Source: a virus. From it: DNA of 28,409 bases. Of the stretch, positions 236 to 27,864 are shown one piece after another. The translations under genes were made by a program, and so were the position numbers. The notes beneath the pieces are model-generated. The model was not told where the DNA came from. It was given only the letters and a program-made list of their open reading frames with translations, and did no database searches. The DNA lies in IMG/VR virus record IMGVR_UViG_3300031951_014982, positions 1 to 28,409 of that record; one strand, written 5' to 3'. Position 1 is the stretch's first letter. Each line of letters begins with the position of its first letter.

Positions 236-242
236 TGCTACA
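236..242 (+). promoter_or_regulatory. Gene-start element TGCTACA
   Basis: This copy of the recurrent GGCTACA element differs at the first base. It lies 23 nt before the ATG at 266 and is followed by a GAGGAGG Shine-Dalgarno sequence. Confidence 0.5.
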
Positions 243-265
243 CCGCGCCGAGGAGGACCCACCAC

Positions 266-742
266 ATGGCCACCCCGCTCGCTCACGCCGACCTCCGCGC
301 TCGCCTCTCCGGCGAGGTTGCGCTCTCTGCGCTGACCGCCGGCCGGGCCGTCGTCTCTCTCCGGTCGCAGCGGACCGGGGAGTTCCGCACCTACCGCGTC
401 GCCAAGTTCGAGACGTCGCCCCACTTCTCCGTCGAGTTTCGCAGCGGTGGGTCGCTGGAGATCTCCGGCGTTCGGATGCCCCGGCTGGACGGGTGGACGC
501 GGATCGGCGTCCTCTACGTTCAGGACGGGATCCCTCACCGTTTCGTGCCGAACCTCAAGACGCACGTCGACAGCGACACCGTGAACGGCTTCCGCTGGAT
601 GGTGAACCAGCTCGTCTCGAAGACCTGGAGCGACGAGAAGGCCGAGATCTGGCACGAGGGGCAGTGCTGCAAGTGCGGCCGGCGCCTGACCGATCCTGAG
701 TCGATCCGGCTGGCCCTGGGGCCGATCTGTCGGGGCCGGTAG
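266..742 (+). CDS. DUF6011-like zinc-motif protein
   Basis: This 158-residue protein ends in a motif typical of DUF6011-type phage and actinobacterial proteins: a C-x-x-C-G-R-x-L-T-D-P-x-S-I segment and then G-P-I-C near the end. The two C-x-x-C cysteines (about residues 136 and 139) plus the terminal Cys could hold zinc. The first 130 residues look like a mixed alpha/beta domain that I do not recognise. The ATG at 266 is preceded by GAGGAGG with good spacing and by a gene-start element. The family has no established biochemical role, so the likely job (nucleic-acid or protein binding) is inference. Confidence 0.8.
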   Translation: MATPLAHADLRARLSGEVALSALTAGRAVVSLRSQRTGEFRTYRVAKFETSPHFSVEFRSGGSLEISGVRMPRLDGWTRIGVLYVQDGIPHRFVPNLKTHVDSDTVNGFRWMVNQLVSKTWSDEKAEIWHEGQCCKCGRRLTDPESIRLALGPICRGR

Positions 743-743
743 G

Positions 744-750
744 CGCTACA
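744..750 (+). promoter_or_regulatory. Gene-start element CGCTACA
   Basis: The element lies 22 nt before the ATG at 773. Downstream, GGGGA (756-760) can pair with TCCCC (767-771), leaving AGGAGA exactly in the loop, so the ribosome-binding site would be displayed on a hairpin. Confidence 0.5.
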
Positions 751-772
751 CGGCCGGGGAAGGAGATCCCCG

Positions 773-1240
773 ATGCGAATCGACTTAAACTCATCTGACC
801 TGCGTTTCCTCTCGCGTCACGCCGACCGCCTCGCCGGCCTACCGATCTCCGTCGGCAACCGACGCGACGACTCCGGGGCGTGGCTGGGGACCTTCCGGCA
901 CGCGCGGGTGTACTTGGCCGGCAAGCCCGTCCGCCTCGACGGGCCGGGTGACGGATGCACCTGCGTCGAGATCCGTGGCAACGCGGCTGGTCCCGTGGAG
1001 GCCGAGCAGCTCGCGGAGGCCGTCGCCCTGTGGCCCCTCGCCGTCGCCGCCGTCGCCCGTCACATCGAAGGCATGGACCCCGCGGCCTGGTCGTGCGAGC
1101 GCATCGACGTGCCCACCGCGATCCTCGGCGGCCCCGAGGGCTGGGAGGGGCTGAGGGACTTCGGCGCGGACCCGACACCCACCGAGTGGGACCTCATCAC
1201 CCACGCGGCAGAGCTTGCCTGGGTTGCGGCGCTCCGCTGA
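773..1240 (+). CDS. Hypothetical protein, 155 residues
   Basis: I do not recognise this protein. It is soluble with no membrane segment or signal peptide. The sequence alternates short beta-like stretches (residues 1-75) with an Ala/Val-rich helix (about 80-105) and an acidic/aromatic C-terminal part. The ATG is supported by AGGAGA about 7 nt upstream and by the element at 744-750. Its TGA stop sits inside a strong inverted repeat (1238-1262), which may end the transcript here. It belongs to the left-arm set of small genes ahead of the replication block. Confidence 0.75.
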   Translation: MRIDLNSSDLRFLSRHADRLAGLPISVGNRRDDSGAWLGTFRHARVYLAGKPVRLDGPGDGCTCVEIRGNAAGPVEAEQLAEAVALWPLAVAAVARHIEGMDPAAWSCERIDVPTAILGGPEGWEGLRDFGADPTPTEWDLITHAAELAWVAALR

Positions 1241-1262
1241 CAGGAGCCGGCCCGGCCTGTCA
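1238..1262 (+). terminator. Inverted repeat over a stop codon
   Basis: TGACAGG at 1238-1244, which includes the stop codon of the preceding gene, pairs with CCTGTCA at 1256-1262. The inner bases (CCGG with CCGG) can extend the stem. There is no T-run, so it is either a weak terminator or an operator. Confidence 0.5.
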
Positions 1263-1287
1263 CTTCACCTCGCCGGAGAGGGTGAAG
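1263..1287 (+). terminator. Second stem-loop in the 1241-1413 gap
   Basis: CTTCACC (1263-1269) pairs with GGTGAAG (1281-1287). The stem continues inward through a one-base bulge and contains a reverse copy of the near-palindrome, ACCTCGCCGGAGAG. It lies directly after the first inverted repeat and is also without a T-run. Confidence 0.45.
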
Positions 1288-1316
1288 GCCGGAGTTCGTG
1301 CGAGCCCCGCGCGTCC

Positions 1317-1329
1317 GTCCTGTCAGGAC
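1317..1329. promoter_or_regulatory. Perfect palindrome GTCCTGTCAGGAC
   Basis: A 6-bp inverted repeat surrounds a single central T. Its half-site CCTGTCA also occurs at 1256-1262, inverted at 1238-1244, and nearly (CCTGTCG) at 1339-1345. Clustered half-sites in the longest early gap suggest an operator for a dimeric repressor; no repressor gene is recognised in the window. Confidence 0.4.
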
Positions 1330-1362
1330 CGCGCCGTGCCTGTCGGTTGAGGCTCGGCACCC

Positions 1363-1375
1363 CTCCCGGCGAGGT
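1363..1375 (+). repeat. Near-palindrome CTCCCGGCGAGGT
   Basis: This is a forward copy of the dispersed repeat (CTCC, 1-5 nt, GGCGAGGT). It lies 12 nt before the GGCTACA element of the next gene. The same order of the two elements recurs at 15988-16020 with a 14-nt gap. Confidence 0.55.
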
Positions 1376-1387
1376 CTGATCGCCAGC

Positions 1388-1394
1388 GGCTACA
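1388..1394 (+). promoter_or_regulatory. Gene-start element GGCTACA
   Basis: A perfect copy 19 nt before the ATG at 1414, followed by GGCCGGCC and a GAGAGGG Shine-Dalgarno-like stretch. Confidence 0.55.
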
Positions 1395-1413
1395 GGCCGG
1401 CCGAGAGGGCACG

Positions 1414-2562
1414 ATGCTCTGCGAAGCCTGCGGCACGTCGGCCGCTACGAAGACCTGGACGGACAGGCAGTACCGCGTCCCGGAGTCGCATCGGCTCTGC
1501 GCGACCTGCCATGACCTCGTCAGCGAGGAGAGGAGATCCAAGATGGGAGCCAACAAGAGAACACCCGAGAACGCGAAGATCGCCAACGCGATCCTTCAAG
1601 CTCTGTTCCGACAGGATGGACAGACCGTTCAGCAGGTTCGAGACGAGATCAACGCCGAATCGGACGAGTACCAGACGGTGAACGGCGTCCTGACGTCTCT
1701 CCAGAAACGAGAGGAGATCACCAGGGTCAACGGCCGATACTTCCTGACACCGTTTGGTCGCAAGCAGGTCGCGCCTCCGGGTCCGGTGAAGCCGGCCGTT
1801 ATCGCGCCGTTAGCGGCCCCCGCGCCTGCCCGTAACGTCGAGGTAACGCTGTCGAAGGACAACGTGGTCACCTACCCGCTGTCGGTGCTCACCGACCTCG
1901 TGGCGCAGGACGACGCGGCCGTGCTCCGTGGCGCGGAGGAATCGATCGCCGCGCTCCGTGCCATCGAGGCCGCGTTGCCGGTCCCCGGTGATCGGGTGTC
2001 GGGCCTGTCGGCGGCGGCCATCGCCGATCGAGCGGTGGCCGCGCTGCACAGCATCCACGACCTGCGACGCACCGAGCGGCTGTACTACGACGACCGCGCC
2101 GCGAAGGAGCGGGCGGAGGCCGAGCGGGACAAGGCGGTCGCCGACCTTGACCGCGTGAACAACGAGACGCTGACCGCGTATGAGACGCTGGAGGACGAGC
2201 ACCGCGCCGAGAAGGCAGCGCACTTCGACGCCAAGGCCGAGATCGCCAGCCTCCGCGAGCAGTTGAACGCGGCCAACGCGGCGCTCGCCTTCTACCGCGC
2301 TGAGCCGCCCAAGCCGTCCGACGCTGACGGCCACTACTGGACCGAGCAGGGCGGCCGACACGTCCTGTCGGTGCTCCGGCCGGTCGACCTAGCGACGGTT
2401 CACTCGATGCCGGGATCCGACCGGTTCGGCTGGGAACTGAACTCGAACGAGGAACACGGCTTCTCCGCGACCCTAGAACGCGCGCAGGCTCACGCCGAAC
2501 TTGCGGCCGGGGTCGCCTGCGTTGCCTGCGCTGCCGGCCGACTGGCCGGAGGTGCGGAATGA
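1414..2562 (+). CDS. Zinc-finger, winged-helix-like and coiled-coil protein
   Basis: This 382-residue protein is modular. Residues 3-33 carry C-x-x-C ... C-x-x-C, a small zinc finger. Residues about 52-115 look like a winged-helix DNA-binding fold, with a helix, a turn and a strand pair ending near Y-F-L-T-P-F-G-R. Residues about 220-295 form a long charged helix likely to be coiled coil. The first start (ATG 1414) has the gene-start element. A second in-frame ATG at 1543 has a much stronger ribosome site (GAGGAGAGGAGA), so a shorter form without the zinc finger may also be made. The protein could be a DNA-binding regulator; I do not recognise the family. Confidence 0.75.
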   Translation: MLCEACGTSAATKTWTDRQYRVPESHRLCATCHDLVSEERRSKMGANKRTPENAKIANAILQALFRQDGQTVQQVRDEINAESDEYQTVNGVLTSLQKREEITRVNGRYFLTPFGRKQVAPPGPVKPAVIAPLAAPAPARNVEVTLSKDNVVTYPLSVLTDLVAQDDAAVLRGAEESIAALRAIEAALPVPGDRVSGLSAAAIADRAVAALHSIHDLRRTERLYYDDRAAKERAEAERDKAVADLDRVNNETLTAYETLEDEHRAEKAAHFDAKAEIASLREQLNAANAALAFYRAEPPKPSDADGHYWTEQGGRHVLSVLRPVDLATVHSMPGSDRFGWELNSNEEHGFSATLERAQAHAELAAGVACVACAAGRLAGGAE

Positions 2563-2828
2563 TCCTCGAAGACTTCATGCGAGATTCCGAGGCGATGGGC
2601 GCGATCCAAACGCTCCGCGCGACGGGTCGCCGGCTCGGCATCTCACCCCAAGAACTCACGCGGTTCGTGGGTGACCTCATCGATCCGGCCGTGCTTGCCC
2701 AGAAGCAGCGGGATGCCGAACTCGCCCGGGCAACCTCGCGGATGCTTGAGCTTCGGGCGCAGCAAGAACGGGCCGATTGGGGCGTTCCCGATCCCGACCC
2801 GTTCCTGACGCGGAGGCTCGGCCGATGA
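2559..2828 (+). CDS. Small helical hypothetical protein, 89 residues
   Basis: The ATG at 2559 overlaps the preceding TGA in an ATGA junction, which implies translational coupling. The protein is mostly helical and charged, with an Ala/Arg/Glu-rich middle and an acidic, Pro-containing end before two Arg. It has no Cys pairs and no membrane segment. Its function is unknown; the coupling suggests that it is made in proportion to the zinc-finger/coiled-coil protein before it. Confidence 0.75.
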   Translation: MILEDFMRDSEAMGAIQTLRATGRRLGISPQELTRFVGDLIDPAVLAQKQRDAELARATSRMLELRAQQERADWGVPDPDPFLTRRLGR

Positions 2829-3067
2829 ATGCCGCCGTCCGATGGCTCGCGGCCCGCCAAGCCGCAGCCGAGGCGCGCGAGCGCGTCGTAGAGGCGCCGG
2901 CTGACGGCCCGCAGCTGACCCTTGCGGGCGCGAGCCTGGAGGCTGAGGCGGCCCGTTTGGCGGCGCAGGAGAGGGCCGCTCAGGCGGCGGTGGACAGGGA
3001 CCCGGCCGGGCGGTGGCCGCTCGGCGGGGGCTGGTCGGTGGTGAGGATGGAGGTGCGGCATGGGTGA
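2825..3067 (+). CDS. Small Ala/Arg-rich hypothetical protein, 80 residues
   Basis: The start chosen is ATG 2825, which overlaps the previous stop (ATGA). A longer in-frame start at 2777 would lie inside the previous gene and is less likely. The protein is a long Ala/Arg/Glu helix (residues 5-60) with a short Gly/Trp tail. Nothing indicates a specific function. Ala/Arg richness alone could come from base composition, but the coupled start, and the coupled start of the next gene over its stop, support a real gene. Confidence 0.6.
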   Translation: MNAAVRWLAARQAAAEARERVVEAPADGPQLTLAGASLEAEAARLAAQERAAQAAVDRDPAGRWPLGGGWSVVRMEVRHG

Positions 3068-3593
3068 GACGGGTTGCTACCGGTGCACCGGGCAAGAGCG
3101 GTTCGAGGGCGCCATTTGTGACGGCTGCGGGTCGGTCGCCGACGGGTACGGCGGGTTTGATGAGCCAGGGACGAGGCTGTCGGTCGGCGAGCCGAGGTGG
3201 CTCGTCTGGACGTGCGATGGGTACGACCCGTGGAACGATCTTGGCGATGCGCTCAACCGATTTGATGCCGCCGTCGATGAGATGGATTCCGGTTCGGAAC
3301 CTCCCGCGCTCTGGGTCGCGTACCCGCTGATGCTCCACGCGCTCCACCCCGACGTCGACGAGGGCGCCGTTGCGGTGTCTCAGTCGGTGGTGGAGTACGC
3401 CGATCCGTTCGCCGCCCTCACCGCCGAGCGCGACGATGCGCTGGCCCGGGTCGCCATGCTGGAGGCCGCGAGGAGCGCCGATCGGGCGATGCTGTGTCGC
3501 ATCCTCGGCGTCGAGTCCGACGCGTCGATCTCGGTGCTTCTGGAGCAGGTCGAGACGCTGCTTGGCTGGCGCGTCGAGCGAGGCGAGCCATGA
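3060..3593 (+). CDS. Hypothetical protein with an N-terminal zinc ribbon, 177 residues
   Basis: The ATG at 3060 overlaps the previous gene by 8 nt and follows GGAGGTGC, a good ribosome site. Residues 7-24 contain C-x-x-C ... C-x-x-C, a likely zinc ribbon. The middle (about 45-105) is rich in Trp and acidic residues. Residues about 118-175 form a helical, probably coiled-coil end. The plan of Cys pairs plus a coiled coil resembles its upstream neighbour, so these may be parts of one regulatory or scaffold set. The family is not recognised. Confidence 0.75.
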   Translation: MGETGCYRCTGQERFEGAICDGCGSVADGYGGFDEPGTRLSVGEPRWLVWTCDGYDPWNDLGDALNRFDAAVDEMDSGSEPPALWVAYPLMLHALHPDVDEGAVAVSQSVVEYADPFAALTAERDDALARVAMLEAARSADRAMLCRILGVESDASISVLLEQVETLLGWRVERGEP

Positions 3594-3934
3594 GCCGGCG
3601 GGCGGTCCCGACGCGGCCGGGCTGGTGGTGGGTCGGAACCTTCGATGGAGACAGGGTCTTTGACCTGAGCGTCGTTGAGGTGTGCCGCTTCGACGGCGGG
3701 CTGCGCGCACGATTCAACGGAGACTGGTTCGAGTTCGAGCAAGTTACCAGAGCTTGGCACGGCACAAGAGACTGGATCGAGCCCGTCGCCAATCCTGAGA
3801 CGCTCGCCGCCCTCCGCGCCGAGGTCGCGAGCCTTCAGGCCAGGATCTCCGACTTCGAGAAGTACACCGAGATCATGTGCCCCGACTGCGGCGCGCCGAC
3901 CGATGGCCTGCCCGACGGGTGGCCGGCCTCCTGA
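3590..3934 (+). CDS. Hypothetical protein with a C-terminal Cys pair, 114 residues
   Basis: The ATG at 3590 overlaps the previous stop (ATGA). The N-terminal half has a run of Trp and alternating strands (P-G-W-W-W-V-G-x-F-D-G-D), like a small beta-barrel. A helix spans about residues 70-95, and the tail has C-P-D-C-G near residue 100. Proteins of this kind are common near phage replication genes, but no function is known to me. This is the last gene of the coupled run; the large stem-loop at 3936-4009 begins immediately after its TGA. Confidence 0.75.
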   Translation: MSRRAVPTRPGWWWVGTFDGDRVFDLSVVEVCRFDGGLRARFNGDWFEFEQVTRAWHGTRDWIEPVANPETLAALRAEVASLQARISDFEKYTEIMCPDCGAPTDGLPDGWPAS

Positions 3935-3935
3935 C

Positions 3936-4009
3936 GCTGTTTCGTTCCGCGGCCCGCCGGCACCACAAGCGCGAGAGCCGGCCGCCTTGTGGTGGCGGAA
4001 CGAGACAGC
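3936..4009 (+). ncRNA. Large imperfect stem-loop, candidate structured RNA or terminator
   Basis: The outer arms GCTGTTTCGTTCCGC (3936-3950) and GCGGAACGAGACAGC (3995-4009) form 15 consecutive RNA pairs, one of them G-U. A 10-nt bulge (3951-3960) follows on the 5' side. Then a perfect 9-bp inner stem pairs CACCACAAG (3961-3969) with CTTGTGGTG (3986-3994), closed by a 16-nt loop. The bulge and the loop both contain GGCC/CCGG blocks that could pair with each other. No T-run follows. The structure fills most of the gap between the coupled small genes and the helicase gene. Confidence 0.6.
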
Positions 4010-4018
4010 CGGCCGCGC

Positions 4019-4038
4019 GGCTACACCTCGCCGGGAGG
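4019..4038 (+). promoter_or_regulatory. Gene-start module: GGCTACA plus ACCTCGCCGGGAGG
   Basis: GGCTACA (4019-4025) overlaps by one base a reverse copy of the near-palindrome. In that copy CCTC can pair with GAGG, placing the Shine-Dalgarno GGGAGG in the 3' arm. The ATG is 4 nt after the module. Confidence 0.6.
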
Positions 4039-4042
4039 GCCG

Positions 4043-5626
4043 ATGCTGGTCAAGATCGGCGCGATGCTGCGCGTCTACGGCGCGTCCGCTCGGATGCGGA
4101 CCGAGATCGAGAGTTGGTGGATCCCCGACGCGACCGCTCACGCCGTCCAGCGTCGGGCGATCCGACGCGGCGCGCGCGACAGCGGAGACGTCCCCAAGCA
4201 CATCCTGGCCGTCTCGGACGGTGACGCGCTCGTCCTCCACCGCGGCCTGACCTCCAGGCTGATGCAGGTCGTTGACCACCTCGGCGAGACGGTGCGCTGG
4301 GTGCCGGAGGTGTTCGAGCATCCCGAGCCGGTCATCCTGCCGCCGTCCCTGCGACAGCCCCGGCCGTACCAGACCGACGCGATCGGCCGGATGCTCACCC
4401 GGAAGCAGGGGCTGATCGTTCTGCCGTGTGGCGGCGGGAAGACCTTCACCGGCGCGCTCGCGATGGCGAAGATCGGCCAACCGGCCCTCGTCACCGCGCC
4501 CACGTCCGACATCGCCGACCAATGGCGCGCGGCCGTCGAAGCCGTCGGGCTGACGGTCGTCCCCTGGCGGCGGGACGCGCCTCCTCTCCCCGGCGAGGTG
4601 GCCGTCTCCGTCGAGGACAGCGTGAAGCCGACCGATCCCGCTCTCCAGCGCGTCGGGGTGCTCGTCGTCGACGAGGCGCATCGGGCGGCCGCCGCGACCA
4701 TGCGGGCGATCGTCTCTGCCTGCCCCGCTCGGTTCCGCTGGGGTCTGACGGCCACGCCAGAGCGCGCGGACGGCTGGGGGCCGCTGCTGCCGGTGCTGTT
4801 CGGCGGCATTCTGATCCAGGTGACGCCGGCCGAGCTTGTTGCTCAGGGCTTCGTCATGGCCCCGAAGATCGCGGCCGTCTCTACCGGCTGGGCGCCGATC
4901 CCCGAGCGACACCGGATCTGGACCGTCACCTGCCCGGGGTGCAAGGCGACAAGAGAGATCGTCGGGGCCGAGCTCGTCCAGGGCTGGACCTGCCCGGGCA
5001 CCCGGAAGCGCGGGAAGTGCGGCCGCGTGTTCACCGAGGCCGACCGGCTCGATCCCAAGAGCGCACGCCCCGGAGAGTGGTCGTGGTCGGCCGTGGTGTC
5101 GGGCGTCGCCGACGACGAGAACCGCAACCAGCTGATCCGGCTTCTGGCCGATCGGCTCGCCAACGCCGGCCGGCGCGTCCTGGTGCTCGTCCCGCGCGTC
5201 GACCTCGCCAAGCGGCTCGCAAGGCAGATCGGGCAGGCCGGCGTCAAGGCTGAGTCGGTGACCGGCGACGCGTCGTCCGCGGCCCGCGCGGAGCCTCTGG
5301 ACCGCCTGCGCTCTGGTGAGACGAGGGTGATCATCGCCACGCAACTCGCCGACGAGGGGCTCGACGTGCCGGAGATCGACGCGGTGATCAGCGCCTCGCC
5401 GGGGAAGGCCGGCGGGAAGGCCGTCCAGCGGGCGGGCCGGGCGACGCGGGCGGTGGACGGGAAGCCGTCTCCGATCATCCTCGATCTGGTCGATGCCGGC
5501 GACCTGATGGGCCGACACTGGGGAGCCAGGCGGGCGGCCTACGTCGACGCGTGGGGGCCGTCGTGCCTGGTGTCGGCGTCGCCGCTGTCGGTGGCCGACG
5601 TCCTCAAGCTGGTCGGCGGCGCCTGA
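4043..5626 (+). CDS. Superfamily 2 DNA helicase with an inserted zinc site
   Basis: This 527-residue protein has the SF2 helicase motifs in order: Q-motif-like RPYQ (107-110), Walker A LPCGGGKT (127-134), DEAH (210-213), TATP (236-239), a motif V region (about 431-445) and QRAGRATRA (462-470). It resembles the XPB/UvsW/RadD-type helicases that remodel branched DNA. Cys pairs at 297/300 and 317/326 form an inserted zinc site between the two RecA-like lobes. I chose ATG 4043 because of the GGGAGG site and gene-start module; in-frame codons upstream fall in the stem-loop. It opens the replication and recombination block and probably drives fork remodelling or strand exchange. Confidence 0.9.
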   Translation: MLVKIGAMLRVYGASARMRTEIESWWIPDATAHAVQRRAIRRGARDSGDVPKHILAVSDGDALVLHRGLTSRLMQVVDHLGETVRWVPEVFEHPEPVILPPSLRQPRPYQTDAIGRMLTRKQGLIVLPCGGGKTFTGALAMAKIGQPALVTAPTSDIADQWRAAVEAVGLTVVPWRRDAPPLPGEVAVSVEDSVKPTDPALQRVGVLVVDEAHRAAAATMRAIVSACPARFRWGLTATPERADGWGPLLPVLFGGILIQVTPAELVAQGFVMAPKIAAVSTGWAPIPERHRIWTVTCPGCKATREIVGAELVQGWTCPGTRKRGKCGRVFTEADRLDPKSARPGEWSWSAVVSGVADDENRNQLIRLLADRLANAGRRVLVLVPRVDLAKRLARQIGQAGVKAESVTGDASSAARAEPLDRLRSGETRVIIATQLADEGLDVPEIDAVISASPGKAGGKAVQRAGRATRAVDGKPSPIILDLVDAGDLMGRHWGARRAAYVDAWGPSCLVSASPLSVADVLKLVGGA

Positions 5627-5634
5627 GTGTCGGC

Positions 5635-5656
5635 CGCTACACCTCGGCCGGAGGTG
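5635..5656 (+). promoter_or_regulatory. Gene-start module with a perfect Shine-Dalgarno hairpin
   Basis: CGCTACA (5635-5641) is followed by CACCTC (5640-5645), a GGCCG loop and GAGGTG (5651-5656). This perfect 6-bp stem has a 3' arm that is the ribosome site for the ATG at 5661. Confidence 0.6.
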
Positions 5657-5660
5657 TGGC

Positions 5661-7196
5661 ATGGCCCGCCAGAAACGAAACCTCGAGGTCCGGGCGCACC
5701 GGTACGAGGGAGAGGTGATCCCAGGGCTGCCGGCCAACGGTCGGGCGGTCGTGGTCAGCAACAGTGAGCTGTCCACCCTGGAGTGTCCGCACAAGTGGTG
5801 GTTGTCCCGCGCCAACGGCCTCCGGCCAGAGCGGACGGCGATGGTGTTGTCCTGGGGGACCGGCCTGCACGCGGTCGTTGAGGACATCAACCGGTTCGCG
5901 ATGTACCACGACGGCCACGACTACCCGACGCAGGCGCTCGACACCTGCTGGCGGTGCGTGGGGACGGGTAGCGTCTCGGAGATCGTCGACCCACTCGGCA
6001 ACATCGCGCCTCGGCAGGAAACCTGCCCGCTGTGCAGCGGGGTCGGCTGGGGCGCGCTGCGTCGGGTCACCGAGGGCTGGCTGGCCGGCCTGGAGTCGGA
6101 GAACCCGTCGCACACCCGCGACGACGTCGACGACATGACCCTGCGTCTCCAGCGGGCGGTGCACGGCTACCTCGTGCGCTGGAACGGGCGGCCCGTGGAC
6201 ACGATGCGGGTGGTGGCCGTTGAGCGGCCTTTCGCGCGGGCCATCGTCGACCCCGCGACCGGCCGGCCCTACCGTCCGTCCATCGACGTCGCCCCGACGG
6301 ATGACGGGTGGGCGCTCGCCTCAACCCTCCCCGGCGTGGTCCATCAGGACGTGCAGCGCGTCCGCTGGCCGTGGTTCGCGCTGATCAAGCCGGACGCCGT
6401 CCTGGTCGAGCGGCGCGGGGGCGCGCTCTGGACCATCGACACGAAGTCGGCGGCCGACACCGGAAAGTTCGCCAAGCGGTTCGCGCTCGATCCGCAGCTC
6501 CCGCTCTACAGCTGGGTGCTGTCGGCGCACCTGTCGGCGCTCGGAGCCAGCCGGATCGGCGGGGTCGCCTACGACGTGGTGAGCTCCGCGCTCCAACGCG
6601 ATCCCGACGAACTGAAGCCGGAGATCCCGGCCGTCGCTGACATGAAGGCGATGGCGGCCGAGCGCGGGATCGACGTCAAGGGGCTGTTGAAGGACGATCT
6701 CGTTCGCGTCCTGGGGATCAACCCTAAACCGAAGCTATCCCTGAAGCGGGCGATCACCCCGACGTGGCGCTTCCGGGCGGCGATGGAGCGCCTCGGGATC
6801 TCCGGCATGGAGTACGAGGACCACCTGATGGACTTGGAGGCGACGGTAGACCGTCGGCTCTATCGCCGCGACTGGCACGTCTACTCGGACGAATCGATGG
6901 ACCGGGTGAAGGCCGAGACGTTCGCCCGGTGTCGGCGGTCCTACGAGATGCACAAGCGGGCGGTGTTGGTCCAGCAGGGCAACGCCGACCTGCACGTCGA
7001 GTTCCCGCGGACGCCGGTCTGCCTGTCGCCGGGCAAGTCGTGCGCGCTCGAGGCGGCCTGCACGATGGGTCAGGACGCGCCGGGGTTCCGCCGGGTGCCG
7101 GTGCTGGTGTGGCGCGAGACGGCTCCGGCCGTGTCGGCGGCTACAGCGGATCACGCTGACGACGTCGCCGACGATGGCGACGGGCTTGGCTGGTAG
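5661..7196 (+). CDS. PD-(D/E)XK nuclease of the Cas4/RecB-like type with iron-sulfur cysteines
   Basis: This 511-residue protein has the RecB-family nuclease signature: His70 in G-T-G-L-H, Asp245 in K-P-D-A-V, Asp260-x-Lys262 in the I-D-T-K-S motif, and Gln279 in D-P-Q-L-P-L-Y. Cys42 lies far upstream of a C-terminal trio (Cys454, Cys461, Cys467), the arrangement that holds a 4Fe-4S cluster in Cas4 and AddB-type enzymes. A further zinc-knuckle insertion has C-x-x-C at 96/99 and 122/125. It would resect DNA ends for recombination beside the helicase and the Sak4-like ATPase. The acidic C-terminal tail ends in Gly-Leu-Gly-Trp. A GGCTACA at 7136-7142 lies within its last codons, 65 nt before the next gene. 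Confidence 0.88.
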   Translation: MARQKRNLEVRAHRYEGEVIPGLPANGRAVVVSNSELSTLECPHKWWLSRANGLRPERTAMVLSWGTGLHAVVEDINRFAMYHDGHDYPTQALDTCWRCVGTGSVSEIVDPLGNIAPRQETCPLCSGVGWGALRRVTEGWLAGLESENPSHTRDDVDDMTLRLQRAVHGYLVRWNGRPVDTMRVVAVERPFARAIVDPATGRPYRPSIDVAPTDDGWALASTLPGVVHQDVQRVRWPWFALIKPDAVLVERRGGALWTIDTKSAADTGKFAKRFALDPQLPLYSWVLSAHLSALGASRIGGVAYDVVSSALQRDPDELKPEIPAVADMKAMAAERGIDVKGLLKDDLVRVLGINPKPKLSLKRAITPTWRFRAAMERLGISGMEYEDHLMDLEATVDRRLYRRDWHVYSDESMDRVKAETFARCRRSYEMHKRAVLVQQGNADLHVEFPRTPVCLSPGKSCALEAACTMGQDAPGFRRVPVLVWRETAPAVSAATADHADDVADDGDGLGW

Positions 7197-7207
7197 GAGA
7201 CACGCCG

Positions 7208-8335
7208 ATGAGCACCGAAGGAACCGAGAATCCGACCACCGCGACCGCGACCGCCGAACCGCAGAAGTCGGCGGGTGCCGTCCGTCGACGCCCCGCGACC
7301 GGAGCGACGACCGCGACGACGACCACGCCGGCGGGTGACGTCGAGAAGACCGACGCGCCGAAGGCCGACGCGACGAAGACCGACGCACCGAAGACGGAAA
7401 CCTCGCCGGGAGAGACGCCCGCCGACGAGCCGACCGCCGACACCGAAGCGGAGGATGACGACCTGTTCGCGGCCTTCGGCGCCCGGTCGGTGGCCGGTGG
7501 CGGCATCGACCGCACGAAGATCCGGCGCAAGCTGTTGATCCACGGCGAGAGCGGGGCCGGTAAGAGCCACCTGCTCGCGACCTGCGACGCGCGGCCGCTG
7601 ATCATCAGCCTGGAGCCTCAGGGCGTGGATACGCTGGCGGCGGCCAACCCCCGGGCGTTGATCGTCGACTGCGTGAAGCTGTCCAAGGAGGACGGCGCGA
7701 TGCAGGCGAAGATCAAGGCGAAGGGACAGCCGGTCACCCCGCTCGCGATCCTCCGGCACATGCTGGGCGAGCTCGTGAGCAACGCCCCGGCCTGGCACAA
7801 GAAGGGCGTGACCAGGGTCGGCTTCGATTCGCTCCACATCATCCAGCAGATGTTCGCCGCGGAGATCGTCTCCGAGACGAACAAGAGCCGGAAGGCGGAC
7901 GGCAAGGAGAGCCTGGACCAGCTCGCCAAGGACGGCTGGGGCGTCCTCGGCACGAAGATGCAGAACTTCTGCGACACGCTCCGCGCGCTCGACTTCGACG
8001 TGCTCGTGGTGGCGATCTCCAAGCAGAAGGAGACGGGGCCGAAGTACGCCGGCCTCCAGGGCGCGTTCTCCGACCAGGTCAACGGGTACTTCAACGCGGT
8101 CGGGTACATCTACAAGCAGCAGATCCCCGGAAAGACGCTGGACGAGGTCGAGCGCCTCGTGTGCTGGGACGCCGACAGCGAGAAGCTGGTGGTCAAGAGC
8201 CACGGCGGCCTGAAGGGGATCACGTCTCCGGACGCGGCCGAGTGGTTCACCGCCATGAGCACCGACGCCGAGATGGTCCTGAAGAACGCCCGGCTCCCGA
8301 AAGAGCTTCGCCGCAAGCCTGTCGCGGGCGCCTGA
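7208..8335 (+). CDS. Sak4-like RecA-fold ATPase (phage recombinase)
   Basis: This 375-residue protein has a P-loop GESGAGKS (113-120) and a Walker B-like V-G-F-D-S (204-208). The compact core without a helicase or protease domain matches phage AAA/RecA-fold ATPases of the Sak4 type, which anneal single strands together with SSB. Residues 1-85 are a disordered Thr/Ala/Pro linker with three tandem K-x-D-A-x units. The linker contains A-G-A-V-R-R-R-P (22-29), and the C-terminus is L-R-R-K-P-V-A-G-A, both copies of the shared basic peptide. The start ATG follows TAGGAGA, which includes the preceding stop. Position next to a nuclease and an SSB supports a recombination role. Confidence 0.82.
   Translation: MSTEGTENPTTATATAEPQKSAGAVRRRPATGATTATTTTPAGDVEKTDAPKADATKTDAPKTETSPGETPADEPTADTEAEDDDLFAAFGARSVAGGGIDRTKIRRKLLIHGESGAGKSHLLATCDARPLIISLEPQGVDTLAAANPRALIVDCVKLSKEDGAMQAKIKAKGQPVTPLAILRHMLGELVSNAPAWHKKGVTRVGFDSLHIIQQMFAAEIVSETNKSRKADGKESLDQLAKDGWGVLGTKMQNFCDTLRALDFDVLVVAISKQKETGPKYAGLQGAFSDQVNGYFNAVGYIYKQQIPGKTLDEVERLVCWDADSEKLVVKSHGGLKGITSPDAAEWFTAMSTDAEMVLKNARLPKELRRKPVAGA
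7346..7390 (+). repeat. Three tandem 15-bp units in the ATPase linker
   Basis: Three consecutive units encode K-T-D-A-P, K-A-D-A-T and K-T-D-A-P with only a few base differences. They lie in the disordered N-terminal linker of the Sak4-like protein and could vary in number by slippage. Confidence 0.75.
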
Positions 8336-8337
8336 GC

Positions 8338-8364
8338 GGCTACAGTCTCCCCGCCGGGGCGGAT
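8338..8364 (+). promoter_or_regulatory. Gene-start element GGCTACA with a nearby hairpin
   Basis: GGCTACA (8338-8344) is followed within 5 nt by CCCC-GCC-GGGG. It lies 76 nt before the preferred ATG at 8421, farther than other copies; an alternative ATG at 8388 lies 43 nt away but lacks a ribosome site. Confidence 0.45.
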
Positions 8365-8420
8365 GCGCCTCCTCCCCGGCCTAACCGATGGCGCGAAACA
8401 CCGAAGAAACCGAGGGCGAC

Positions 8421-9068
8421 ATGTCATTCATCGTGAATGCGGGTGAGCGTAAGAAGGAAGCCGAGGCGCATGGCTTCGACGTCGAGACGGGCGAGACGAC
8501 CCGCAAGGTCATGGACAACCTGCGGGCCAACTACACGGTGGCCGTCGTGGGTCTGAGCCGGCGGACGTCAGCCAAGGGCACCAACATGCTCGGGATCCGG
8601 TTCGTCTGCGTTGACGCGCGGGATCGCGTGTCGGGCGACGTGCTCAAGGACCAGATCGGGCGCGTCCTCGATCGCGAGTACGCGATCACGGAGTCGGCGA
8701 TCGGGTTCCTGTCCGATCTCATCGTCGCCTGCGGGTACGATGGGAACTACGACCCGATGGACAACGAGCGGCTCAACGACATCTTCGCCGGCGCGCCGAG
8801 CGGCCTCGTGCGGTTCCGGCTCAAGGAGCGGGAGTACACGAAGAAGGACGGGTCGAAGGGGAAGGCGTTCGAGCCGTCCACCTACTTCAAGTTTCCGACC
8901 GGCGTCGACACCCCGGACGGGGCCGACGAGTTGATCAACGTCGCGATCGACGACTTCAACAAGTACCTCGAAAACCTGGAGAAGAACCCGCGCCGGTCGG
9001 CTGGCGGTGGCGGCGCTTCGGGCGGTGGTGGTGGCTCGGTCGACGACAACTCGGACCTTCCCTTTTAG
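8421..9068 (+). CDS. Single-stranded DNA-binding protein (SSB-like, DLPF acidic tail)
   Basis: I favour ATG 8421 (GAGGG 5 nt upstream) over ATG 8388, which has no ribosome site. The 215-residue product has a beta-rich core (about residues 35-165) resembling phage OB-fold ssDNA-binding proteins. A Gly/Ser linker follows (194-206), and the acidic tip is D-D-N-S-D-L-P-F. That tip matches the protein-interaction tail of bacterial SSBs, which end in D-(I/L)-P-F and recruit helicases, nucleases and repair enzymes. It lies between the recombinase and the RuvC-like gene. The core fold is inferred from context and tail rather than from strong motifs. Confidence 0.8.
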   Translation: MSFIVNAGERKKEAEAHGFDVETGETTRKVMDNLRANYTVAVVGLSRRTSAKGTNMLGIRFVCVDARDRVSGDVLKDQIGRVLDREYAITESAIGFLSDLIVACGYDGNYDPMDNERLNDIFAGAPSGLVRFRLKEREYTKKDGSKGKAFEPSTYFKFPTGVDTPDGADELINVAIDDFNKYLENLEKNPRRSAGGGGASGGGGGSVDDNSDLPF

Positions 9069-9093
9069 TTCACGTCTGGCTTGGGGCGACCTG

Positions 9094-9810
9094 ATGCGAG
9101 TCCTCGGGATCGATCCCGGCCATGATGGGGCCGCCGCGCTGCTCGATGCAGCCGGCGGCCTCTCTGCGTTGTGGTCCTGGCGCCGCGTGCAGCGGAACGG
9201 CCTCACCGCGTACACGCTCGTGTGCGTGGCGCTGGTCGATGGGGAGTGGCGGACGTCCACCTGGACGGTGCCGACCCTGGGGCGCGTCGGGGCGAAGCTC
9301 GGCGAGTGGATGCCGGCCGAGGCGACGGTGATCGCGCACGAACTGCCCTTCGTCGGGAAGTCGGTATCGGCGGCGCTGTCGGTCGCGTTCTCCTCCGGCG
9401 AGGTGATCGGTCCCATCCGCGCGCTCGCCAGCTTCCGCGAGGTCGAGGGCGTGAAGCCCACCGAGTGGCGGTCGGCGCTGGGCGTCGCAGGCGGCAAGCG
9501 GGCCGACGCGAAGGCGCAGGCCGAGGTCATCGCCTGGACGGTCCCCGGCCTCTCCGACGCGCTCGCCGTGCTGGCCCAGGCCGGCGGCTACACGGCGGAC
9601 GAACCGCACGCGGCCGAAGCGGCTGGCGTCGCGCGGTGGAGGTGGCTGTGGCTCGGAAAAGAGCGACCGCGTCCGAAGCGGACATCGAAGCGGTCTACAA
9701 CGACTGGCGCCGTCGCCAGAAGGTCCCGGCCCTCTGTCGGCTCTCCGAAGAGCGGAAGAGGAAGATCGGGCAGGCCATCGGCTCTCGGGGACGGGTCGAC
9801 CTCGTCGTGA
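9094..9810 (+). CDS. RuvC-like Holliday junction resolvase
   Basis: The start is ATG 9094. Residues 1-18 hold the RNase H-fold opening motif G-I-D-P-G-H-D-G with Asp7. Further acidic residues sit where RuvC carries its metal ligands: Glu83 in A-H-E-L-P, and Asp169 and Glu175 in D-E-P-H-A-A-E-A-A. A basic patch around K-R-A-D-A-K lies at 135-140. Such enzymes resolve branched replication and recombination intermediates before packaging. After about residue 190 the sequence becomes a Lys/Arg/Ser-rich tail of poor quality and overlaps the next gene by 163 nt in another frame. The true end may therefore differ because of a frameshift or a sequence error, or the tail may be dispensable. Confidence 0.82.
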   Translation: MRVLGIDPGHDGAAALLDAAGGLSALWSWRRVQRNGLTAYTLVCVALVDGEWRTSTWTVPTLGRVGAKLGEWMPAEATVIAHELPFVGKSVSAALSVAFSSGEVIGPIRALASFREVEGVKPTEWRSALGVAGGKRADAKAQAEVIAWTVPGLSDALAVLAQAGGYTADEPHAAEAAGVARWRWLWLGKERPRPKRTSKRSTTTGAVARRSRPSVGSPKSGRGRSGRPSALGDGSTSS

Positions 9811-12307: not shown

Positions 12308-12322
12308 TCCCGAGGTGAACCC

Positions 12323-15982: not shown

Positions 15983-15987
15983 GGTCC

Positions 15988-16034: not shown

Positions 16035-16040
16035 GTGCTC

Positions 16041-17077: not shown

Positions 17078-17111
17078 TTGGTCGGGTCCGTTGAGCGTTG
17101 AGGAGGTGGCC

Positions 17112-17932: not shown

Positions 17933-17942
17933 CCGGGCCGGC

Positions 17943-17949
17943 GGCTACA
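17943..17949 (+). promoter_or_regulatory. Gene-start element GGCTACA
   Basis: A perfect copy 18 nt before the TTG start at 17968, with GGAGG between them. Confidence 0.55.
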
Positions 17950-17967
17950 CGGCTGCCGGAGGTTCCC

Positions 17968-18488: not shown

Positions 18489-18688
18489 AGCGTGACGCCG
18501 ACCTTCGCCGCGCCGCCCTCGAAGTGTCGGCCGCGTCGGTGACGCTGGGCTGTCGGCTCGCGGTGGCCGGCAACCTCCCGCTCGCCTACGCCGTCCTCGC
18601 CATCGGCACCGGGGCGCTGTCGCTGCCCGTGATGCAGCCGGCTACGACGCGTCTCCGTCGACGTGGAGGCTCCGGTGGCCGCTCCTGA
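18485..18688 (+). CDS. Small membrane protein, 67 residues
   Basis: The GTG start overlaps the preceding stop (GTGA). A hydrophobic stretch spans about residues 17-54 (long enough for one or two membrane helices), and a very basic tail follows with T-R-L-R-R-R. Together with the two genes upstream it makes a coupled trio of envelope-directed proteins. No family is recognised. Confidence 0.6.
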   Translation: MKRDADLRRAALEVSAASVTLGCRLAVAGNLPLAYAVLAIGTGALSLPVMQPATTRLRRRGGSGGRS

Positions 18689-18851
18689 CAACGGCCGGCT
18701 GGGCGAACTGATCGAGAAGTTTCGTCAGCGCGGCATGGACAACGGCCCGGACGCCGAAGACTGCTTCGACGTCGTCGACCTGCTGAGCGAACTCCGCGAG
18801 CGTCGCGGCCAACGCGAGCCGGCCGAGCCCGGGCTGTTCCCTCCGCGCTGA
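18675..18851 (+). CDS. Small protein ending in PGLF, 58 residues
   Basis: GTG 18675 is chosen because GGAGG lies 5 nt upstream; it overlaps the previous gene by 14 nt. The protein is charged and helical, with an acidic centre (D-A-E-D-C-F-D-V-V-D) and a Glu/Arg-rich helix. The C-terminus is E-P-G-L-F-P-P-R, so PGLF again sits at the end as in the 163-residue protein at 17441. That suggests binding to a shared partner. The function is otherwise unknown. Confidence 0.65.
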   Translation: MAAPDNGRLGELIEKFRQRGMDNGPDAEDCFDVVDLLSELRERRGQREPAEPGLFPPR

Positions 18852-18858
18852 GGCGCGC

Positions 18859-18865
18859 AGCTACA
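18859..18865 (+). promoter_or_regulatory. Gene-start element AGCTACA
   Basis: A near copy 45 nt before the ATG at 18911, farther than most. The spacer contains two direct GCCACGAC copies. Confidence 0.4.
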
Positions 18866-18910
18866 TCCGCCACGACGGCCGCCACGACAGCGCGGCCCGT
18901 GGAGGGTGTG

Positions 18911-20773
18911 ATGCGCATCGCTTTCTGGATGTGTCAGGGCGGAGGCTGCGAGGAAGTAGAGTCGGCGGTGGACGTGTGCGACGGCGGGCAGATCGCCGAC
19001 CCACTCTCCGTTGCCTTGGAGAAGGCATGGTCGACAGCTTCGACCCGTGAAGACGAACTGACCGGCATCTTTCAGGCGTTCGGCTCCCGCCACGCTGGGA
19101 GCCAGGGACGGTTCCAGGCGCTGGCCGCCGACCTCTGGTACCTGTTCGGCGACGAAGCGCGGTCGGAGAAGGTGCGGGTCGGCGACTTCGGGCCGCTGGC
19201 AACGGGTGTCGGTGACCTGGAGTCCAAGATCCGGCTCGCCGCTCAGGAAGGCCGGGCGTTGGCGAAGGTAATCACCACGTCCAACGAGCAGTCGGATGCC
19301 CTTGCGCACACCTTCGCGTCGGTGGCGAAGACGATGCAGGCCTTCGGTGACGCGCTGGCCGGAAGCGGCCTGGATGAAGTCGCGGAGGGGCCGCCGGACG
19401 GGCTGATCGAGGACTACGTCGGCGAAGCGACCGCTGCGATCGATCGCGGTCGCGCGTTCGGATTCTGGTACACGAACCACCGCGGGGTGAGGGCGTGGCG
19501 CTGGGTGCTCCCGCAAGGGTTCTGGACGGGCACGAACGAGTTCTATCCAGACGTCTCGCGAGGCCTGTTCTTCGACGCCTTCGACCTCGACCGCAACGCT
19601 TCGCGTACCTTCCTCGCTGACCGTATCGAAGGACCGTTCGTCACCGCCGAGCCCGACAGCCTCCCGGCCGGCCCCGACGTCGACGAGCAGGAGAAGATCC
19701 AGGCTCTACAACGCGATGGGCACTCGCATAGCTGTGCCGTTCGGCAGGTCGCGGTCGGTGAGTCGGCGGTCATCTGTGAGCAGTGCGTCGGCCGTCGGCC
19801 GGCCTACGAAGACACCCTAGACCGAGTCCTCTATGGGGTGCTCAGCAGCGAAGACCGCAAGAACATGGCCGATGCAATCTCATTCGGAGGACGGCCGGTC
19901 GTTGACCCTGGGCACATGGATCTCTCCGTTCAGGGAGAGCCTATGTCCAAGTTGCAAAAGGAGATCGTCACCCACATGGAAGAGGTGATGCGCGCCACCT
20001 ACGACGCGCCGTCCGAGTTGATGGGCGGACCGGTCAGCCCGACGGCCACGCTGCCCGGTGAGACCTCGGCCGCCATCGGGCCGACGCGCCGTCTGTCGGT
20101 CCTGGAGGACGGCACATGGTGTGCGTTCGTCGTGGCCGACGGGGCGCACATCCCGCACACTCGGACCGTCGGTGACACGCCGGTGAGCGCCATCCTCGGC
20201 AAGTTCGAGTCAGGCTCCGAGCCGGCCGACACAGAGGCGCCCGGGTTCGTGCCCGACGGCGGGCTGGTCGGTGACGGCTGGGAGGAGTCCACGCCGATCG
20301 AAGTCGGCCAGGTCTGGATCGCCAAGGACCCCGACGCGCTCGGTCAGCGGTGGTCGAAGGTCGTGGTGCGGCAAGGCCCGAACGAGGGCGGGCTGTACGG
20401 CGTCGTCCCGCACGACGAACCCGAGTACCTCCCGTCATTCGTGACGGCCGAGAGCCTGCGGGCGTCGATGCGTCGGCAGGTTCCGTTCATCGCTCCCGAG
20501 GCGCCTCCGGTGAACATCGTGGGGCCGGCTCCCGGGAGTCTCTGGACCGCAGAGGTGGTGGACGGGTGGAAGCCGGCGACGAGGCCTCCCGCACCCGAGC
20601 CGACCGGGCCGTATGCCGAGCACCTCGCCATCCTCGCCGGCACCACCTCCCCCGGCGAGGTCCAGGCTCTGGCCGTCCTCTCCGTCGACCCGTCCGCGGT
20701 GCCGGCCGTACCTGTCGCCTCCGACACCGACGCTGACACCGCCACCGACCCGACCGATCCCGGTGGCTGGTGA
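18911..20773 (+). CDS. Large mosaic protein of unknown function, 620 residues
   Basis: ATG 18911 is preferred (GGAGGG upstream) over GTG 18899. Residues about 1-165 are mixed, with a helix-rich part. Residues about 184-240 contain W-Y-T-N-H-R-G-V followed by F-D-A-F-D-L-D-R-N-A-S-R-T-F. This is a small domain seen in many phage proteins and loosely WYL-like; such domains usually bind nucleic acid or ligands. A later region carries C-x-x-C near V-I-C-E-Q-C-V. Beta-rich segments follow, and then a Pro/Asp/Thr-rich disordered tail ending D-P-G-G-W. It looks assembled from several phage domains. It is coupled to the next gene. Confidence 0.75.
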   Translation: MRIAFWMCQGGGCEEVESAVDVCDGGQIADPLSVALEKAWSTASTREDELTGIFQAFGSRHAGSQGRFQALAADLWYLFGDEARSEKVRVGDFGPLATGVGDLESKIRLAAQEGRALAKVITTSNEQSDALAHTFASVAKTMQAFGDALAGSGLDEVAEGPPDGLIEDYVGEATAAIDRGRAFGFWYTNHRGVRAWRWVLPQGFWTGTNEFYPDVSRGLFFDAFDLDRNASRTFLADRIEGPFVTAEPDSLPAGPDVDEQEKIQALQRDGHSHSCAVRQVAVGESAVICEQCVGRRPAYEDTLDRVLYGVLSSEDRKNMADAISFGGRPVVDPGHMDLSVQGEPMSKLQKEIVTHMEEVMRATYDAPSELMGGPVSPTATLPGETSAAIGPTRRLSVLEDGTWCAFVVADGAHIPHTRTVGDTPVSAILGKFESGSEPADTEAPGFVPDGGLVGDGWEESTPIEVGQVWIAKDPDALGQRWSKVVVRQGPNEGGLYGVVPHDEPEYLPSFVTAESLRASMRRQVPFIAPEAPPVNIVGPAPGSLWTAEVVDGWKPATRPPAPEPTGPYAEHLAILAGTTSPGEVQALAVLSVDPSAVPAVPVASDTDADTATDPTDPGGW

Positions 20774-22085: not shown

Positions 22086-22106
22086 GGCTACACCCCGCCG
22101 AGGAGG
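22086..22106 (+). promoter_or_regulatory. Gene-start module GGCTACA plus AGGAGG
   Basis: GGCTACA (22086-22092) precedes CCCCGCCGAGGAGG, with the Shine-Dalgarno sequence at 22101-22106. The GTG start is at 22112. Confidence 0.55.
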
Positions 22107-22419: not shown

Positions 22420-22445
22420 ACCTCGCCGGGAGGGGAGCGGCTACA
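22420..22445 (+). promoter_or_regulatory. Reverse near-palindrome next to GGCTACA
   Basis: ACCTCGCCGGGAGG (22420-22433) is followed 5 nt later by GGCTACA (22439-22445). The TTG start at 22465 is 19 nt after the element, with GGAGGT between. Confidence 0.55.
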
Positions 22446-22464
22446 GCACGGGCCGGAGGTGCCC

Positions 22465-22776
22465 TTGCCCGATCCCCTCGACTCCCTGTCTCTCCGCGTG
22501 GTCCCGCACACGATCCTGTCGCCTGTCCAGGGCTGGACGGTGCTCGGCGGCCAGTACATCGGCGGGCCGGACGACCCGGCCGACCGGCGGATGGTGCTCA
22601 GCGCGGCCGAGCTGCGGAGCCTGCTCAAGATGGCCGAGGCGACGCCATCCGGCCGGGTCGTCCTGCACCACGTCGGCCTGAACGTGAAGCTGATGCACCC
22701 GAACGACAAGCCAGAGCAGCGGGTGGAGTTCGTGACCCTGACGAGTTCGGGTGCCAAGCCTGAAAAGGTGCTCTGA
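22465..22776 (+). CDS. Hypothetical protein, 103 residues
   Basis: The TTG start has GGAGGT 4 nt upstream and the GGCTACA element. The protein alternates strands (T-I-L-S-P-V-Q-G-W-T-V-L-G-G) and one helix (about residues 44-60), followed by another strand pair. It resembles small phage structural or decoration proteins in composition only; I do not recognise it. Its stop overlaps the next ATG (TGATG). Confidence 0.7.
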   Translation: MPDPLDSLSLRVVPHTILSPVQGWTVLGGQYIGGPDDPADRRMVLSAAELRSLLKMAEATPSGRVVLHHVGLNVKLMHPNDKPEQRVEFVTLTSSGAKPEKVL

Positions 22777-22884: not shown

Positions 22885-22901
22885 CTCCCTCCCGGCGGGG
22901 T
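22885..22901 (+). promoter_or_regulatory. Late-type element CTCCCTCCCGGCGGGGT
   Basis: It differs by one base from the element at 25552-25568, and the flanks also match (21 of 22 positions in total). It lies 23 nt before the fibre gene, while the other copy lies 25 nt before the terminase gene. This pair may mark a separate class of promoter. Confidence 0.5.
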
Positions 22902-22924
22902 AACCGGGGCCGAGAGGGCACCCG

Positions 22925-25551: not shown

Positions 25552-25568
25552 CTCCCTCCCGGCGAGGT
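25552..25568 (+). promoter_or_regulatory. Late-type element CTCCCTCCCGGCGAGGT
   Basis: The partner of the element at 22885-22901. It lies 25 nt before the large terminase gene, in the divergent gap. Confidence 0.5.
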
Positions 25569-25593
25569 AAGAGCGCCGTGAGGCTCTGAGCCC

Positions 25594-27318: not shown

Positions 27319-27322
27319 CGGT

Positions 27323-27343
27323 GGCTACCTCCTGGCTGGAGGT
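27323..27343 (+). promoter_or_regulatory. Gene-start module with a perfect Shine-Dalgarno hairpin
   Basis: GGCTACC (27323-27329) overlaps ACCTCC (27327-27332), which pairs perfectly with GGAGGT (27338-27343) around TGGCT. The 3' arm is the ribosome site for ATG 27348. Confidence 0.55.
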
Positions 27344-27347
27344 GCTG

Positions 27348-27572
27348 ATGACCTGGACGATCCCGTTGATGTTGGGTGTGGCACACGCTGAGTTCCCGGC
27401 CCGTGAGCCTGTGGTGGCTTCGATCCCACCGATGGCCGCGCCGACCACGCCGCGAGGGCTGGAGGCCGGCCGGGGCGCGCGGCTGACGTGCCGGTGCGGC
27501 GCTTCGTTCCCGTTCGCCCGGGCGCCGAAGTACTGCCCGTCCTGCAGCGCGCGTCTCGCGCCGAAGGGCTGA
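27348..27572 (+). CDS. Small zinc-ribbon protein, 74 residues
   Basis: The ATG is preceded by GGAGGTGCTG. The C-terminal 30 residues carry C-x-C and C-P-S-C (T-C-R-C-G-A-S-F ... Y-C-P-S-C-S-A-R-L), a compact zinc ribbon. The N-terminal part is hydrophobic then Pro-rich, slightly like a signal peptide, though an exported zinc ribbon would be odd. It follows the terminase with a 29-nt gap. The head-tail genes usually seen here are absent. The function is unknown. Confidence 0.65.
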   Translation: MTWTIPLMLGVAHAEFPAREPVVASIPPMAAPTTPRGLEAGRGARLTCRCGASFPFARAPKYCPSCSARLAPKG

Positions 27573-27575
27573 CCG

Positions 27576-27839
27576 GTGGCACCGCTCTTGTGGTCCCTGC
27601 TGGTGCTGTCGGGGCTGTCGCCGTCCAGGCCGGCCCCGGCCGACACGTCCGTTCTCCTGGCGCCGTTCCTGGCGGCCCAGCAGGTGCGGTGCTGGGACCG
27701 CTGGGGCTGGTGCCGGTCGCCGACGATCCCCGGGGACGTCTGCCCCTGCGTGCGGTCGCTGTGCACGGACGGCGTGAGGATCTGGCGCACGTTCTCCGGC
27801 CCGGTCTGCTCTGCGCCCGGACTCCCTCCGGCGAGGTGA
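27576..27839 (+). CDS. Putative secreted Cys-rich protein, 87 residues
   Basis: The GTG start lies 4 nt after the preceding stop. Residues 1-22 form a signal-peptide-like hydrophobic stretch (L-L-W-S-L-L-V-L-S-G-L) with a small-residue end. The remainder has six Cys in pairs (C-W-D-R-W-G-W-C; C-P-C; C; C), which could form disulfides outside the cytoplasm. Its stop is overlapped by a near-palindrome copy (27822-27837). The start has no strong ribosome site, so confidence is moderate. Confidence 0.5.
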   Translation: MAPLLWSLLVLSGLSPSRPAPADTSVLLAPFLAAQQVRCWDRWGWCRSPTIPGDVCPCVRSLCTDGVRIWRTFSGPVCSAPGLPPAR

Positions 27840-27864
27840 TCGGCCGGGCGGTCGGGCGGCTACA
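27822..27864 (+). promoter_or_regulatory. Near-palindrome and GGCTACA before the lipoprotein-like gene
   Basis: CTCCCTCCGGCGAGGT (27822-27837) lies 20 nt before GGCTACA (27858-27864). The ATG is at 27902, 37 nt after the element. Confidence 0.45.

Follow-up and report, generated by a model that had tools for sequence, protein, structure and literature searches.

Several described phage systems place a short recurring sequence upstream of many genes. T4-type late promoters (TATAAATA, gp55) are 8-bp elements consisting of a −10 region only, and in some genes they lie in the 5' arm of a hairpin that includes the Shine-Dalgarno sequence (SD). The late promoters of AR9 and phiKZ are very short motifs heading dozens of phage genes, with the consensus AACA-6N-TA/G and leaders of 26 nt or more in AR9. 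The stoperators of Cluster A mycobacteriophages and the 17-bp repeats of Cluster O are present in many copies in short intergenic gaps and are not described as locked to the SD; the latter are palindromic, and roughly one in three lies within a gene. SigA-type extended −10 promoters of GC-rich bacteria and their phages carry G at −14, T at −12 and A at −11. A −35 element is not required for extended −10 promoters. The T at the end of a −10 box is normally one of its most conserved bases, and in GC-rich phages such boxes are not easily recognised. The start-associated sequences (SAS) of Cluster K mycobacteriophages (consensus GGGATAGGAGCCC) contain the SD, sit 3–7 bp from the start and occur only in the non-structural half of the genome (PMC3203893).

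The DNA analysed here (hereafter the window), a 28.4-kb record (28,409 nucleotides, 70% GC), comes from an uncultured tailed phage and has its genes on the plus strand. These encode a DUF6011 protein, an SF2 helicase, an exonuclease, a Sak4-like annealing protein, an SSB-like protein, a RuvC-like resolvase, a primase-helicase, a second helicase, a MazG-like protein, a product with a weak tail-fibre match and the terminase large subunit (TerL). One 7-kb contig from another record is near-identical to the window, and megablast gave no DNA match between its first 24 kb and cultured phages. At most independently started genes a signal, GGCTACAC, lies about 12 bases upstream of the ribosome-binding site. 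Like the SAS and ESAS of Cluster K, it is a short asymmetric repeat found in one orientation upstream of many starts, and its function, like theirs, is unproved. However, it is separate from the SD, its TA lying 11–15 nt further upstream, and it is also found, complete or reduced, around the terminase gene. The comparison with Cluster K made in the original prediction therefore applies to the layout only, and the element does not belong to the SAS, from which it differs in sequence and place. The element shares with T4-type late promoters its recurrence upstream of many genes and its position in the 5' arm of an SD hairpin in some of them, but it is GC-rich, the hairpin is found in a minority of copies, and the SD begins almost at the predicted RNA start. 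No gp55-like protein, sigma factor or polymerase gene, including any multisubunit polymerase of the AR9 type, was recognised in the window.

The gene-start module in the window

The module is real. GGCTACA is the most over-represented 7-mer on the plus strand, where the leading 8-mer is CGGCTACA; it occurs 11 times on this strand and once on the minus strand, against 0.82 expected on both strands together and a maximum of 3 in dinucleotide shuffles. The core of the element is GCGGCTACAC, with an invariant TA: the 12 aligned copies all have G at position −2 and GCTAC, followed by A in 11, whereas base 0 is mostly G. A weight matrix over the core (10 bits or more) gave 15 matches on the plus strand and 2 on the minus strand (1.4 in Markov sequence). 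All 15 strong plus-strand matches sit 20–90 nt upstream of a start (random mean 1.09), 10 of them at 24–31 nt, and none of 20,000 random placements reached either figure. The genome-wide count against start codons thus bears out the original prediction, as does the absence of the element from the overlapping starts at 2559, 10175, 16607, 20770 and 21030.

Most copies, all on the plus strand and with distances counted from their first base, lie close to a start: 236–243 (TGCTACAC, 30 nt upstream of 266, SD GGAGG at 252–256), 744–751 (CGCTACAC, 29 nt upstream of 773, with the SD GGAGA at 762–766 as a hairpin loop), 1388–1395 (GGCTACAG, 26 nt upstream of 1414), 4019–4026 (GGCTACAC, 24 nt upstream of the SF2 helicase start at 4043, SD at 4034–4038), 5635–5642 (CGCTACAC, 26 nt upstream of the exonuclease start at 5661, SD at 5650–5654, the element being the 5' arm of a 10-bp hairpin at 5636–5660), 13264–13271 (GGCTACAC, 31 nt upstream of the helicase start at 13295, forming a hairpin with GTAGCC), 16014–16021 (GGCTACAC, 27 nt upstream of the MazG-like start at 16041), 17943–17950 (GGCTACAC, 25 nt upstream of 17968), 22086–22093 (GGCTACAC, adjoining the stop at 22085, 26 nt upstream of 22112), 22439–22446 (GGCTACAG, 26 nt upstream of 22465) and 27323–27330 (the variant GGCTACCT, 25 nt upstream of 27348, in the 5' arm of an SD hairpin). 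The gap of 17–24 nt between element and start codon given in the original prediction fits 11 of its 14 starts. It does not fit 8421, 18911 and 27902, for which the copies lie at 8338–8345 (GGCTACAG, right behind the stop of the Sak4-like gene, 83 nt upstream), 18859–18866 (the variant AGCTACAT, 52 nt upstream, pairing with the SD region across an inserted hairpin) and 27858–27865 (GGCTACAC, 44 nt upstream, with an extra hairpin inserted between element and SD). Two exact copies, 7139–7146 (GGCTACAG) and 9586–9593 (GGCTACAC), were missing from that list; they appear to be intragenic, but lie at the 3' ends of the exonuclease and RuvC-like genes, 69 nt upstream of the Sak4-like start at 7208 and 62 nt upstream of an inferred GTG start at 9648. 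In favour of the latter start are an SD and a change of reading frame seen in the GC3 signal, and correction of the gene boundary removed copy 9586 as an intragenic counter-example. Longest-frame ORF finding is misleading in this region (9007–10178), where the RuvC-like gene (ATG 9094) overlaps the gene starting at GTG 9648. Also additional to the listed copies are two reduced versions, 22898–22905 (GGGTAACC, start 22925) and 25565–25572 (AGGTAAGA, TerL start 25594), which lack the flanking GGC and CAC and keep only the TA, 12 and 11 nt upstream of the SD, respectively.

A second intergenic repeat, approximately TCCCTCC(C)GGCGAGGT, is found 39–80 nt upstream of starts at 1360–1375, 15984–15999, 22886–22901, 25553–25568 and 27822–27837. 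Read as its reverse complement, the core of this repeat matches ACCTCGCCGGGAGG in the 4019 module. The copies at 22886 and 25553 run into the TA of the reduced elements, and those at 1360, 15984 and 27822 lie 28–36 nt upstream of a full element.

No match to the module was found in Rfam, and no relevant publication was retrieved for GCTACA in connection with phage promoters. Motif scans of viral contigs and of bacterial and archaeal genomes, with copies counted per contig, gave scattered single matches only, which we judged to be due to chance, so neither use of the module by a host nor a near relative was found in this way.

Distance to the Shine-Dalgarno sequence and a probable −10-like promoter

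Although TA has a frequency of only 0.0086 per base in this genome, it lies 11–15 nt upstream of the SD in 13 of 26 leaders (expected 1.1, P = 8e-12), at a distance of 11 nt once, 12 nt five times, 13 nt five times and 15 nt twice. The invariant TA of the full core is placed 12–15 nt upstream of the SD, and elements beyond the usual distance are much farther away, at 30 nt or more. In −10 promoter geometry, RNA starts 12 nt after the T of the box. Messages that start at this distance and have to contain the SD would be expected to give just such a spacing, with a floor at 11–12 nt and a free upper end.

We therefore favour, with a probability of about 0.7, the reading of the element as a −10-like promoter without a −35 box, from which RNA would start at or just before the SD. 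Such a −10-only (extended −10) promoter would head most transcription units of the phage. RNA polymerase would recognise GCGGCTACAC by its G, T and A at −14, −12 and −11, respectively, and transcription would begin some 12 nt downstream of the T, which places the RNA start on the first base of the SD or no more than about 3 nt ahead of it. Most leaders would then be about 9–16 nt long, with little beyond the SD and its spacer, and the near-constant spacing would be the shortest that keeps the SD in the message; the copies at 7139, 8338, 9586, 18859 and 27858 would give longer leaders. Genes overlapping the previous gene would need no element because they would be translated from the same message. 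Polymerase binding and the position of the RNA start are what we infer from the sequence.

In agreement with SigA-type extended −10 promoters, G at −14 and the TA at −12 and −11 are each present in all 12 aligned copies. However, the T at the last position of the −10 hexamer is found in none of the 12, no conserved block was detected 15–20 nt upstream, where a −35 element would lie, in either the window or its closest co-linear relative (see below), and a scan of bases 1–20000 for the sigma-70 consensus gave nothing. The missing T at −7, which is shared by the window and this relative, is the main weakness of the promoter reading and also its main hint of an unusual initiation factor.

Asymmetric sites in a single orientation in short intergenic gaps would also suit one-way operators bound by a phage repressor, as in the stoperators of Cluster A mycobacteriophages. 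We consider this explanation very improbable: neither the tight spacing to the SD nor the reduction to a bare TA at two starts is expected of an operator, and no repressor or integrase was recognised in the window. In Pfam, genes 1414–2562 and 18911–20773 matched Penicillinase_R (E = 0.0015) and WYL (E = 0.0045), respectively, below the threshold; they are possible DNA-binding regulators, although these matches are too weak for naming them.

Elements at the same place in related phages

Searches with the large terminase and a terminase alignment identified relatives in a family of uncultured phages (TerL 36–47% identical). Relatives found with helicase profiles were not close; they lack the element and were used as controls. 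GGCTACAC was not seen as a repeated module in any relative of the TerL family. Nevertheless, in the GC-rich members of this family TA lies 11–16 nt upstream of the SD in 38 of 91 leaders (expected 9.9), with a density of 0.070 per position in this interval versus 0.027–0.042 around it, whereas 249 leaders of control phages showed no peak (flat at 0.023–0.031). By genome, the excess was clear in L376–L379 (18, expected 5.7), L374–L375 (10, expected 3.8) and L339–L340 (9, expected 3.6); the peak was weak in the largest relative, L380–L383 (12 of 62, expected 6.4). For relative G2, the first count was made on hand-picked genes; the repeat by rule was weaker but still significant (6 of 18, expected 1.5, P = 0.0025). 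The boxes of the family include TAGACT, TAGGCT, TACCGT and TATGGT; of 38 boxes, 16 end in T at position six (controls 7 of 36) and 24 have G at −14 (controls 14 of 36). Many of them (TAGACT, TAGGCT and TACCGT) look like ordinary −10 boxes of GC-rich bacteria and sit at the same place as the element of the window, which itself departs from SigA-type promoters, together with its closest co-linear relative, in lacking both the T at −7 and a −35 box.

This relative (L374+L375, IMGVR_UViG_3300009128_001426) has its exonuclease, Sak4 and first helicase in the order of the window, and its primase, second helicase and TerL are 40%, 36% and 39% identical, respectively. Its repeated element, GGGTA(G/C)AAC, is unlike that of the window, and the exact form GGGTAGAAC occurs in 5 copies (0.19 for shuffled patterns); GGGTAGAAC and GGGTACAAC are absent from the plus strand of the window. 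The distances from T to SD are 12, 12, 12, 12, 12, 14, 15, 23 and 24 nt, so that most copies with a clear start have the SD 12–15 nt after the T. The element precedes the orthologues of the exonuclease (5661) and Sak4 (7208) and a homologue of the gene at 12323. The gene after Sak4 could not be shown to be an orthologue of that at 8421 and was left out of the count. The leaders of this relative are unstructured, with no hairpin (mean z = +0.39). An 8-mer unrelated to the start element, GCGCAGCT/AGCTGCGC, is present in 23 copies in this genome (2.5 expected).

The small gene upstream of TerL that starts at 22465 in the window has a 45% identical homologue in L262 (6130–6180). The window gene carries GCTACAG and the homologue, in the same place, GTTACAA (CGTTACAA), each within a TA-bearing box 12–13 nt upstream of the SD (22439–22465 in the window). 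In a relative with 51% GC (L341+L342, IMGVR_UViG_3300012952_000048), a recurring start module was read by eye at many genes on both strands, roughly TATAAG ... TGTAA(G) ... ACCAACGGAG (AACGGAG) ... ATG.

The conserved sequence of the element, its orientation, its position, the spacing floor and the occurrence of another element at that site in relatives are all direct observations. The promoter reading draws on the strand and position bias, the floor between TA and SD, the TA peak of the family and the other element at the same 12-nt minimum in the co-linear relative. A site of RNA processing, at which an endoribonuclease would cut at UAC or ACA to yield messages with short leaders, would also explain a UACA at a fixed place upstream of the SD. 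However, words containing TACA are enriched on the coding strand in general and the co-linear relative uses TAGAAC besides TACAAC, which leaves this explanation scarcely credible.

Leader hairpins and possible messages beginning with the Shine-Dalgarno sequence

For 13 copies, the mean folding energy of the leader is −13.4 kcal/mol, compared with −9.5 (sd 0.62) when element and SD were fixed and the rest was shuffled, and this counts against the promoter reading, since a pure promoter does not predict it. The excess comes mostly from about five copies (5635, 13264, 18859, 27323 and 27858) with perfect or wobble-paired hairpins. In 18859 and 27858, the inserted hairpin fills the extra distance and brings the element beside the SD. 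The original prediction of hairpins near 5640 and 27327, and of an SD in the loop near 756–771, was correct for these sites, but many other copies have a weak hairpin or none.

This folding, and the locking of the element to the SD in most copies, would be consistent with a start signal acting in the RNA. A phage or host factor would bind GGCUACAC in the transcript, or this sequence would pair with the SD, and the translation rate would be set in this way. An RNA-level signal has been proposed but not proved for the Cluster K sequences. In the window it seems unlikely: the element is kept at 236, 17943 and 22439 although it hardly pairs with the SD region there, the distance to the SD can reach 30–50 nt (27858, 18859 and 9586), the predicted exposure of the SD is no different from that in control leaders of other GC-rich phages, and the co-linear relative has another element at an equal minimum spacing with no hairpin. 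General occlusion of the SD by hairpins was rejected on the control-like predicted exposure. The presence of hairpins in few copies and the weak pairing elsewhere likewise indicate that they are not the reason for the conserved sequence. The hairpins are thus real in about five copies but secondary. Of the two readings offered initially, the evidence favours the −10-like promoter with a very short leader, because the floor of 11–12 nt matches the usual distance from the first base of a −10 box to the RNA start and recurs in the co-linear relative, whereas RNA control by hairpins is not supported as a general mechanism.

The two may nevertheless be combined in a subset of genes. In about five copies the element can pair with the SD in messages that read through from upstream, and the 5' arm, GGCUACAC(CUC), could hide the SD and mute translation there, while messages started locally would lack the arm and be translated. 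There is precedent in T4 genes e, soc, 49 and I-TevI (PMC3014915, PMC2988022). This would be an optional addition to the promoter reading, not an exclusive alternative. In its favour are the strong stems at 5635, 13264 and 27323, where RNA is predicted to start close to the beginning of the 3' arm. However, the gain in SD exposure from read-through to local message (0.08, mean of 14 copies) is smaller than in control leaders (0.14), so that, as a class, the copies show no effect of the gene e type beyond that of controls, and the arrangement is not conserved in the co-linear relative. We regard the combination as somewhat unlikely overall, with structure predictions pointing to 5635, 16014 and 27323 as possible individual cases.

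Returning to the promoter reading, we tentatively suggest, with considerable doubt, that in this uncultured family most transcription units may be driven by −10-only promoters that are fused with the ribosome-binding site, with messages beginning with the SD, and that the element may differ from lineage to lineage (GGCTACAC in the window, GGGTA(G/C)AAC in its co-linear relative) and be recognised by a co-evolving initiation factor, phage-encoded or phage-modified, that does not need the T at −7. To look for a TA about 12 nt upstream of the SD is a rule, open to testing, by which promoters of GC-rich uncultured phages can be sought. Should messages indeed start at the SD, their leaders would fall between the leaderless and the ordinary type across the part of the genome that was sampled, and the two co-linear relatives with different elements would constitute a natural experiment on a phage-wide change of promoter specificity.
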